64,000 nt of DNA, from positions 1 to 64,000 of the forward strand of contig NZ_AMYT01000011.1 of assembly GCF_000313915.1 (NCBI RefSeq), read 5' to 3'. Origin of the DNA: Catellicoccus marimammalium M35/04/3. GTDB lineage: Bacteria > Bacillota > Bacilli > Lactobacillales > Catellicoccaceae. Each line of letters begins with the position of its first letter. Position 1 is the stretch's first letter. The notes under the pieces were generated by a model. The model searched no databases, had not been told where the DNA came from, and was given only the letters and a program-made list of their open reading frames with translations. Below, piece by piece: positions 4,059-13,047 of the stretch. The position numbers and the translations under genes are program-made.

Positions 4059-6394
<2,336 letters not shown>

Positions 6395-6417
<23 letters not shown>

Positions 6418-7669
6418 AGACCACTTCTCCTTTACATAGCGTATATTCGATTTTTCCATATAACGTTTGACCGATAAATGGAGAATTCACTCCTTTAGAT
6501 AAGAAGAAGTCTTCCGTTACTTCAAATGGAGTTTCTAAATCAATAATCGTTAAGTTTGCTTTCTTTCCTTCTTCAATCGCAAAAGTAGGTAGATCAAAAA
6601 CTTGCGCAGGTTTTTCTAGGAAGAAAGAAAGGAGTTGTTCTAAAGATAAACGATTTTCTTTTACAGCATAGGTATAAAGTAATGGGAAAGCTAACTCTAA
6701 TCCTGTAATCCCAAAAGGAGCATTTTCAATGGAACGAGCTTTTTCTTCTTTTGTATGTGGAGCATGGTCGGTTGCGATACAATCGATCGTTCCATCTAAT
6801 AATCCTTCCCATAACGCGGCTTGGTCTTCTCGACTGCGAAGAGGAGGATTCATTTTATAGTTACTATTAACTTCTGGAATATCGGTATCATTGAGTAGTA
6901 AATGATGAGGAGTAACTTCACAGGTTACCGGTAAGCCATAAGCTTTGGCTTTACGCATCAAAGCCACACTTTCTTTAGTAGAAATATGGCACATGTGATA
7001 GGCACAACCTGTTTTTGCGACTAAAGCTAAATCACGTAAGAGTTGTAAATATTCACTAATACTTGGAATTCCTGCATCGTTGAGGCGAGTGTGTTCGGTT
7101 CCTTTGTGGAAACTTCCATGATGTAAGAAGGATTCATCTTCGACGTGAGCTACGATGGTTTTATTTAAGGCATGTGCTTGTTTCATGGCTTGTTCCATAG
7201 TATATGCATCTTGCACTCCTACACCATCATTGGTAAAAGCAATCGGATGACTTGGTAAGAATTGTTCCATTTCGACAATAGAAGAGGAAGATAATCCTTT
7301 AGTAATTGGGGCATATTGATCAATTTCAATCGCAGATAATGCATTATGTTCTTGCATTTTTTGGAATGATTCTGGTGTATCTGGCACAGGTTTTACATTT
7401 GGCATCGTACAAACACGAGTGAATCCACCATGTGCAGCCGCTAAAGAGCCAGTGAAAATATCTTCTTTATCACAAAATCCTGGGTCACGGAAATGAACGT
7501 GTAAATCTGTAAAACTTGGGACAACTTTTTTCCCTTTAGCATCAATCACCAATTCTTCTGCCATTGGTGTTAGTTGATCTGCAACTGATAAAATTTCTTC
7601 TCCTTCGATTCGTAAATCTTTTTGAACCCATTGTCCATTTTGAAATAAACTTCCATTTTGAATTAACAT
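6395..7669 (-). CDS. pyrC: Dihydroorotase
   Basis: A 424-residue amidohydrolase cyclising N-carbamoyl-aspartate to dihydroorotate (class I, PyrC/AllB-like length). The metal-binding signature [10 protein letters not shown] is near the N terminus, followed by the His-containing blocks TIVAHVEDE and [12 protein letters not shown] and the C-terminal [10 protein letters not shown] carrying the catalytic Asp. The start overlaps the end of pyrB by 7 bp. In many lactic acid bacteria carA-carB sit between pyrC and pyrK; here pyrK follows directly. Confidence 0.96.
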
Positions 7670-8622: not shown

Positions 8623-8788
8623 AAAAAAAAGACGCTAAACTAAGTTAGCGCCTGTGAACTTCGAATATTCAATTGCATCGTTATTTATTTGATTTCTATA
8701 TGATTCGACCCTAAAAAGGATAGAAAGATAGTATTTCTCTATAGTAAGTTAGAAATAACGATGAATCTCTTTGAAGCCTCACAGGACT
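8623..8788 (-). promoter_or_regulatory. PyrR-dependent attenuator in pyr operon leader
   Basis: Read on the minus strand, the leader holds AGTCCTGTGAGGCT (8775-8788), matching the PyrR-binding anti-antiterminator consensus. The segment CCTGTGA within it can pair with TCACAGG at 8651-8657, and ATCGTTATTT (8755-8764 region) with AAATAACGAT near 8667-8681, forming a long antiterminator. That pairing competes with the terminator hairpin GGCGCTAA/TTAGCGTC (8631-8652), which is followed by a U-run (8623-8630). By family knowledge, UMP-bound PyrR would favour termination. PyrR itself is not encoded in this window. Confidence 0.9.
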
Positions 8789-8823
8789 ACATTTAAAAAG
8801 TCATATAATTTCTAATTGCGACT

Positions 8824-8852: not shown

Positions 8853-9357
8853 GAGAAAAAATAAATTCAAAAAGTAACTTTTTGTCTCCCACTCCTAGAC
8901 AAATTTTTGAAAACAAATTTTGTATTTTACTTTTTAATATAAAACCTTGTATAAATAAGGGTTTGAGCTGATGGAGATGAATTATATCGCAAAAATAAAC
9001 AAAAAAATTAAGGAGATAAAATAAAAAGCAACCCTAAAAAACAAAAAAATGAGGAAAAATATCAATTTTTAGATTAAAATTTTCTCATTTTTGTCAAGAA
9101 ATTATTCGATGAGGGTCAAAAAACGCAAAAAAATTCAAAAGATAAAAAACAAATTTTACATAAAACTACTATTTAAATTTATAAAATGGAAGAGTGGGAA
9201 AGAAAAATCCTTTAAAATAGGGCGTTTAGGAATTTGAGGAAATAGAGAGTAAAAGTAAAAATAAAAAAGATATAAGGAAATGATTTTTGGTATATTAATG
9301 TTGTAGGGGATACATAGTGTATGAGAAAAACCTAGATGAATATGATGAATAAAAAAA
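8853..9357. other. AT-rich region without a gene, upstream of hairpin array
   Basis: No credible coding region. It holds a long A/T hairpin (AAAAATGAG about 9045-9053 with CTCATTTTT about 9084-9092), an AACCTT/AAGGGTT imperfect palindrome near 8942-8962, and at about 9300-9315 a possible degenerate member of the downstream array (TGTA-GGGGA-TACA). A plus-strand promoter for the array should lie here, but no strong -35/-10 pair can be picked. Confidence 0.5.
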
Positions 9358-9849
9358 CTAACTTGTAAGTAGGGGTACAAACAAGTTAGAAGAAAATATC
9401 TTATGATATAGGGGTATGTTATGAGATATACGTGTATGAGTTCATCAATAAAATAGGGGTACTTTATTGATACGCATATTCATCAAATTATTTTTATAAT
9501 GAACTTTATGATTGAAAAAAGGGGTATGTAATCCTAAAGTCCACTATAAAAATAAGAAGGATAAAAAATCTAAAATTGGGGTATGAAGATTTTTTATCAA
9601 GTACATTTCGTTACAAAATAGGGTAGTTGTTAACGAAATGATTGGGTATATAAACATAATAGGGTAATCAGTAATTTAATTGATCATAGGGTAAGATAAA
9701 TTAAATTACGAAAACAATTTAGTAGAACTTATTCCACTTATCTTTATAATAGGTTATAATACTATGCATTGTCAATAGGGTGAAAGCTCAAATAGGAAAC
9801 AAAAAAGAAGTTAATTTCGAAGTAGGGTGCGAAATTAACTTCTTTTTTT
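9358..9849 (+). ncRNA. Tandem array of hairpins with conserved AGGG(G)U loops, candidate structured RNA
   Basis: Eight hairpins follow one another: 9358-9389, 9396-9429, 9444-9471, 9503-9540, 9560-9598, 9604-9640, 9671-9709 and 9806-9843. Stems are 9-14 bp and share no common sequence (for example CTAACTTGT, GATAAAAAATCT, CATTTCGTTA, GTAATTTAATT). Every loop apex is nearly the same: AGGGGT in the first four, TGGGGT in the fifth, AGGGT in the rest, usually closed by T-A. Three more motif copies (9642, 9660, 9776) sit between hairpins. The last hairpin ends in a T-run and can act as a terminator. Stem G-T pairs mostly form G-U only in a plus-strand transcript. Conserved loops on changing stems imply selection on RNA structure; the function is unknown. 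Confidence 0.7.
9801..9849. terminator. Terminal array hairpin acting as intrinsic terminator
   Basis: AGAAGTTAATTTCG and CGAAATTAACTTCT pair perfectly over 14 bp, extended by A-run/T-run pairing. T-runs on both strands let it end the array transcript (plus) and the small gene at 9861-10049 (minus). Its loop also carries the array motif AGGGT. Confidence 0.85.
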
Positions 9850-9860
9850 GTCTTTATTTT

Positions 9861-10049
9861 TTAATTATATCTTTCACTAATTATTTCTTCATAAGTAATA
9901 TTCAATAACTCTGTAATTCGTTGCAGTTCATTATATCCATCATGAGCTGTTAATAAAATCTTAAATGGTAGAGTATTTGATTCCCAGCCCATTTTCATCG
10001 CTTGATAATATTCTTTTACCAAGTATTCATTTGGATCAACACGTTCCAC
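9861..10049 (-). pseudogene. Small hypothetical protein with an apparently disrupted start
   Basis: The frame encodes about 62 residues (ERVDPNEYLVKEYYQAM..., ending EEIISERYN) with ordinary protein-like composition. The only in-frame candidate start is the GTG at 10049, which lacks a ribosome site. A good AAAGGAG lies at about 10083-10089, followed by TTGAACTAAATTC. Removing one T there would open TTG-AAC-AAA-TTC-AAA-GAA into this frame and add about nine helical residues (NKFKEAYEK). A single-base insertion is therefore likely, or the protein starts weakly at GTG. I do not recognise the family. It converges on the hairpin array and shares its terminator. Confidence 0.4.
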
Positions 10050-10331
10050 TTTTTCATATGCTTCTTTGAATTTAGTTCAATTCTCCTTTGTTGAAGTTTG
10101 AGTAAAATATTCATAATTTGTTATTAAAAACAATGATGTCTAAAAATAGAAAAAATAAAACAAAATAAATTTCTCTCCTTTTCATTATTTATTCTTTATT
10201 TTAAAGTATTTTTAAGTATAAAATCGATTCATACTCATTGTTCAAAATTAAAATAAAAATAAAAAAATAATTGAAAAAGATAAAAAGTTTATATACTATT
10301 ACATTATATTTTAGAAAAAGGAGTATAGATA
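10050..10331. other. AT-rich intergenic region between small ORF and protease
   Basis: Contains the minus-strand expression signals of the small ORF (AAAGGAG near 10083-10089; a possible TTGTTT/TATTTT promoter upstream) and, for the protease, a weak plus-strand TTGAAA (10271-10276) with TACTAT 17 bp downstream. Nothing else is evident. Confidence 0.4.
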
Positions 10332-12750: not shown

Positions 12751-13047
12751 ATCGTCATCTCTTTCTTCTTAGTCATAGAAAGGGACATAGTGTCTTATGA
12801 TAGGGGTATTTTATCTATTTAAGGGTTTTGTTAATATAAAAATGAATTCTTTTTAAGTTTCTTTTATATTATATCATAAAGTTGTATTTTATTCTTGAGA
12901 AATTTTTGATTTTTATCAATTTTTTTTGATATGAAGTTAAGTCCTAAAAAAATAGAGACATTTCTAATGAAAAAGAAGAAAGATTAAAATAACTAGAAAA
13001 AACGTTATAATATGCGAGTTGATTTTGTATAAGAAGGTAATAAAAAA
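12751..13047. other. Intergenic region around the solitary array-like motif
   Basis: Apart from the motif at 12793-12815 and the ribosome site of the membrane-protein gene (AAGAAGAAAGAGATG on the minus strand), the stretch is very AT-rich and holds no coding region. A TATAAT-like box near 13006 cannot be assigned to a gene. Confidence 0.4.
12793..12815 (+). repeat. Solitary diverged copy of array hairpin 2
   Basis: On the plus strand TCTTATGATA-GGGGTAT-TTTAT matches array hairpin 2 (from 9399) at about 21 of 24 aligned positions with a 2-nt gap. Around the loop AGGGGT only a weak 6-bp stem (TATGAT/ATTTTA with G-U) can form. It lies 43-65 nt upstream of the minus-strand start at 12750, so that gene's leader carries the complement. 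Confidence 0.5.

Follow-up and report, generated by a model that had tools for sequence, protein, structure and literature searches.

Guanidine-II (mini-ykkC) riboswitches consist of two tandem hairpins, with conserved ACGR loops on variable stems, and are located upstream of transporter genes. LhrC of Listeria monocytogenes is a G-poor, Hfq-independent, multicopy sRNA with redundant CUCCC sites in two loops, that of the terminator included, and in a linker, each of which can bind an adhesin mRNA at its start region and block that region (PMC4132741). CsrB, in turn, carries 22 sites within 366 nt (PMC3856055).

The locus described here, a set of hairpins which share the loop but not the stem, was found in a window of 64,000 nt (the whole stretch of DNA that was analysed) from Catellicoccus marimammalium, a member of the Lactobacillales that lives as a symbiont in the gut of gulls (PMC3569323). 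The genome comprises 1.28 Mb in 23 contigs, and the GTDB PyrB closest to its own shows 66% identity. The array sits in ∼1.7 kb devoid of a convincing gene, flanked by the pyr operon (minus strand, reading down from 8604) and by an S8 protease gene (plus strand, from 10332). Besides an attenuator-like terminator at 8653-8630, the leader of the pyr operon (8623-8803, minus) contains a PyrR-site match below threshold (38.1 bits, gathering cut-off 54).

Eight inverted repeats, located independently of the first-pass annotation, are present at 9358-9848 (Table 1). Their arms are unrelated, yet the motif (A/U)A(U)AGGG(G)UA is present in all eight loops, in the GGGG form in H1-H5 and in the GGG form in H6-H8, which confirms the earlier claim of unrelated stems with near-identical loops. 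The same annotation had described eight consecutive hairpins with stems of 9-14 bp and one apical loop. All eight do exist, but only H1-H7 (9358-9709) are consecutive, with H8 beginning about 90 nt further on; the measured stems range from 9 to 26 bp; and in H4 and H5 the motif stands off-centre in large loops of 15-16 nt. Additional motif copies lie beyond the strong hairpins, at 9306, 9644, 9662, 9752 and 9778.

Table 1. Hairpins, motif copies and candidate transcription signals of the array (window positions).
Feature	Positions	Strand	Remarks
Weak extended -10, TGgTATATT	9288-9296	plus	
Extra motif copy TGTAGGGGATACA	9302-9314	plus	directly past the weak extended -10
U7 tract	9351-9357	minus	A7 on plus; directly after H1; candidate intrinsic terminator / 3' end
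H1	9358-9389	either	CTAACTTGT aa GTA[GGGG]TAC aa ACAAGTTAG
H2	9396-9429	plus	15 bp including 3 G.U, -13.5 kcal/mol; on minus -1.5 kcal/mol, unfolded
H3	9444-9471	either	loop ATA[GGGG]TAC
H4	9488-9555	either	arms 26 bp, 88% complementary; AAAGGGGTATG in large loop
H5	9560-9598	either	perfect 12-bp stem; TTGGGGTATG in loop
H6	9604-9640	either	loop AATAGGGTAG
Two motif copies outside strong hairpins	9641-9668	either	TTGGGTATA, AATAGGGTAAT
H7	9671-9709	either	loop CATAGGGTAAG; homologous hairpin in paralogue
Conserved block CTACTAAATTGTTTTCGTAATTTAATT	9699-9725	minus	common to array and paralogue (2 mismatches)
Promoter-like TTGACA-18-TATTAT, 11/12	9746-9775	minus	predicted start ∼9739
H8	9801-9848	either	loop GTAGGGTG; T7-8 on plus, T6 on minus

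The MFE of the array corresponds to a z-score of -7.6 on the plus strand and -12.8 on the minus strand, with none of 100 shuffles on either strand being equally good. When 1.495 Mb of sequence from this genome and from Lactobacillales were scanned in 450-nt stretches for hairpins with a common loop 5-mer, the array reached seven and any other stretch three at most. A 493-kb sample harbours 96 TAGGG+T sites, nine of which are in hairpins scoring at least 15, and six of these nine fall inside the 570-nt array. The interpretation as a CRISPR array was rejected, as only the loop core (∼8-14 nt) is repeated, the spacing is irregular and near-identical direct repeats of constant length are absent. 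No gathering-level Rfam match was detected in the array and nothing below gathering was credible, in support of the earlier statement that it fits no recognised family. Taken as a whole, the array is a real, unusual and lineage-restricted structured element, and most likely a non-coding RNA with multivalent loops.

Counting of motif clusters led to the identification of one diverged paralogue in the same genome (contig C15, 52.78-53.06 kb), which is homologous to window positions 9646-9725 with a local score of 56 (1000 shuffles: mean 25.8, sd 3.1, maximum 45). With three mismatches allowed, the 27-nt block CTACTAAATTGTTTTCGTAATTTAATT occurs in the genome only in the array and the paralogue (0 and 2 mismatches) and is missing from the 147 other Lactobacillales genomes searched. 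Outside the homologous part, the paralogue has motif-bearing hairpins of its own with different stems (CTCTTTTATC..GATAAAAGAG and CTGTTAACCATTT..AATGGTTAACAG). In the H7 stem, as read from the alignment, one pair has changed from A-T to G-C and another from A-T to G.T, and the number of compensatory stem changes between array and paralogue is one. Since the paralogue possesses the block, its own hairpins and the H7 pair changes, the element is a maintained small family and not a single accident; the structured non-coding elements of this family are confined to the lineage.

Beyond this pair, the blastn search of the array against its own genome returned the self match only, no array-like match was found among 20 relatives or, by blastn, among plasmids and phages, and a triple AGGGGTA pattern recovered this array alone in 395 genomes of the order. 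The first-pass annotation had looked to related genomes for homologous arrays and had proposed a covariance model of all eight hairpins as the means of finding them. The expectation of related arrays is borne out in part: no comparable array was present in the 394 other Lactobacillales genomes sampled, and the single relative of the array resides in the same genome. GGG and GGGG loops did not come into one register in MAFFT alignments. A covariance model of H1-H3 retrieved self matches only, and at E≤10 the whole genome yielded no other hairpin.

Several other candidates were set aside. A third motif cluster (C15, 239.56 kb) is not homologous (score 29), and tandem TATAAT promoters overlap with its copies of the motif; at this locus (L153, 5560-5620) phoH is preceded by two AATAGGGTATAAT copies, 31 nt from each other, and one of the two forms part of an 11/12 promoter match. 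Matches to the triple AGGGTA pattern represent 22-bp iterons that look plasmid-like, and tandem hairpins of 52 bp with a different architecture. The former are iteron-like direct repeats (e.g. TAGGGTACAAATTAGTATTTATC) in genomes G009, G056 and G228, where they are probably plasmid replication origins. The latter occur as several units with a 52-bp period at several intergenic loci (L303 and L322 in G188; L304, L321 and L323 in G060) of one genus from another Lactobacillales family; the unit is ACTTCTTAGGGTAACGGCTCTATCCTAAGGAGT plus an A-rich spacer, TAGGGTA is in the stem, and the stems are near-identical across units. The IMG/VR motif matches listed were, by their look, mostly short-period tandem or coding repeats, none of them array-like, and the five IMG/VR matches to the CTACTAAATTGTTTTCGTAATTTAATT block are chance-like and have no adjoining motif cluster.

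The first-pass annotation had read the array on the plus strand, with H8 as the natural 3' end. H8 is indeed a strong predicted terminator on plus, but it is bidirectional and on minus ends a probable remnant ORF: the open frame of 62-70 residues at 9861-10090 (minus) has no usable start codon and is probably a gene remnant that stops at H8. The plus-strand reading itself is not established, as the minus strand has the better promoter, the U7 after H1 and a terminator in the paralogue. This promoter lies inside the array, just inside H8; equally good intergenic promoter sites number 15 in the 493-kb sample, 12 of them directly upstream of a same-strand gene. The equivalent end of the paralogue, on the same strand, is a -13.6 kcal/mol hairpin followed by T7, and is situated 479 nt past the nearest same-strand gene, a permease with its own terminator. 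Read from the minus strand, both RNAs would have the CTACTAAATTGTTTTCGTAATTTAATT block near the 5' end, and both consist of 9-10% G and 18% C. Against this strand, H2 folds on plus only, and the motif copies of the H8 loop, 9778 and 9306 fall outside the proposed minus transcript, while the stem wobbles are balanced between the strands (3 G.U, 3 A.C). Because the minus-strand features recur in both paralogues and the plus-strand features do not, the minus strand is favoured, and we lean to transcription from it, without certainty.

The best explanation of the locus, although a tentative one with rather less than an even chance of being right, is a minus-strand non-coding RNA gene, one of two diverged paralogues, specifying a multi-site LhrC-like antisense sRNA. 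While the array with its non-randomness, the paralogue, the shared block and, as a prediction, the open loops are shown by the sequence, we infer strand, transcription, targets and mechanism of this sRNA as follows. Transcription would start from the 9775-9746 promoter and stop at hairpin H1 with its U7, yielding a G-poor RNA of ∼390 nt (∼9739 to ∼9351) in which nine UACCC(C)UA copies would be exposed in loops and in short single-stranded stretches. Any one of them could then pair with AUAGGG(G)UA or GGGG close to the translation start in a small number of mRNAs, the best candidate targets being surface-protein genes (a WxL operon and an adhesin). In agreement with such a design, the C run is predicted to be at least 97% unpaired at eight of the nine minus-strand sites. 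The search for ATAGGGGTA in mRNA leaders found only two sites, both in the WxL surface-protein operon of contig C8, and the predicted duplexes of the ATAGGGGTA leader sites with the GGGG-type array loops range from -16 to -19 kcal/mol (WxL leader, -18.7). The best two of 274 sampled start regions were those of a WxL-operon gene (-16.8 kcal/mol) and a secreted adhesin-like protein (-15.1 kcal/mol); across the 274, the C loops displayed no overall pairing excess over reversed or shuffled loops. It also counts against the minus-strand sRNA that GGGG is found near the start in only ∼5% of genes. Isolated TAGGG(G)TA sites were rejected as a genome-wide regulon, their enrichment between genes being only mild.

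Both WxL-operon sites are found on the minus strand of locus L013 (contig C8) as hairpins which match the array loop. The one at 6650-6750, with the loop AUAGGGGUAU, is positioned directly past the promoter of the first operon gene; the 3' side of the other, at 4700-4770, overlaps the Shine-Dalgarno sequence of a later gene.

These leader hairpins bear on the most serious rival, according to which a plus-strand RNA of ∼550 nt (9303-9849) would act like CsrB, its G-rich AUAGGG(G)UA loops titrating an RNA-binding protein or a C-rich sRNA. The titrated factor would be drawn off mRNA leaders carrying the same hairpin, a logic that does without CsrA. With scores of 13.0 and 16.0, against a null whose 95th percentile is 12.0 and 99th 16.4, both ATAGGGGTA leader sites form hairpins that display the array loop, which is what binding of array and leaders by one protein would predict. 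Likewise, all eight hairpins fold on the plus strand (H2 there only), H8 is a strong terminator on that strand with the motif in its loop, motif copies occur between the hairpins too, as in decoy RNAs, and the change from A-U to G.U in the paralogue H7 keeps the pair on plus alone. However, the plus strand offers a weak extended -10 in place of a good promoter, the paralogue lacks a strong plus-strand terminator, the H1-H3 covariance search produced no further hairpins, and intergenic regions are only mildly enriched in the motif. The earlier suggestion of a protein sponge fails in its literal CsrA-type sense, given that the PF02599 (CsrA/RsmE) profile search of the genome gave no match while control genomes were positive; since the genome has no CsrA, CsrA is not the loop-binding protein. 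A decoy is considered on the unlikely side, although serious. Its more specific form is clearly less probable still: a new RNA-binding protein of this Gram-positive, CsrA-less lineage would recognise AUAGGG(G)UA loops, and the decoy would control the WxL mRNAs that share the hairpin. Mimicry of Shine-Dalgarno sequences by the G loops was rejected because of weak anti-SD pairing (about -4 to -8 kcal/mol, compared with -18). Elsewhere in the window, a ATAGGGGTAT site at 12795-12815 precedes a membrane protein gene (minus); as its TCTTATGATAGGGGTAT is almost a copy of the H2 5' arm and loop, this leader could form base pairs with an array RNA from the plus strand.

There is only a slim chance that the array acts at the level of DNA, double- or single-stranded, as inverted repeats around TAGGG(G)TA forming an operator cluster or a recombination or replication site, with template-switch repair keeping the stems perfect. 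As DNA, the stems form nearly perfect palindromes whichever strand is read, and some isolated motif copies are found at promoters (L174, L168, L153); still, operators need no stems, the change in length between GGG and GGGG and the irregular spacing are a poor fit for a dimeric DNA site, the array has neither a recombinase nor a Rep gene next to it, and plasmids and phages yielded no match. Least probable of all is that the array is a repeat in decay, or a by-product, that has no function at present, which would agree with the narrow distribution (no such array in the 394 other members of the order), yet eight unrelated intact stems with one constant loop are hard to keep without selection and the diverged paralogue retains motif-bearing hairpins and the shared block.

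Compared with described systems, the array shares tandem hairpins with constant loops and variable stems with guanidine-II riboswitches, but it has eight hairpins, no gene in a clear cis position, and neither ACGR loops nor an Rfam match. It resembles CsrB/CsrC and RsmX/Y/Z in extending over hundreds of nucleotides, with many hairpins and one repeated purine-rich loop motif, except that its loops read AGGG(G)UA and the GGA core of CsrB/RsmZ is absent. With LhrC and other sRNAs of the UCCC motif (RsaE, RNAIII, FsrA) it has in common a redundant C-rich motif in loops, single strands and the terminator loop, and its minus-strand RNA is G-poor as that of LhrC is. LhrC, however, is a much shorter RNA with three UCCC sites and two stem loops, whereas the array would offer about nine UACCC(C) sites over ∼390 nt on long AU-rich stems; the UCCC core is absent from its minus-strand loops, which read UACCC(C), and no sequence match to LhrC or RsaE and no gathering-level Rfam match was detected. 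The array would work in the manner of LhrC if read from minus and of CsrB if read from plus, but a defining feature of each was sought in the array and found lacking, and it is placed in neither family. It is rare among Gram-positive bacteria for one loop to be presented repeatedly on stems that change freely. If the plus strand is the one transcribed, the array points to an undescribed RNA-binding regulator; if it is the minus strand, the array would specify, to our knowledge, the most multivalent C-rich sRNA known, apparently directed against surface proteins of a symbiont from the bird gut.
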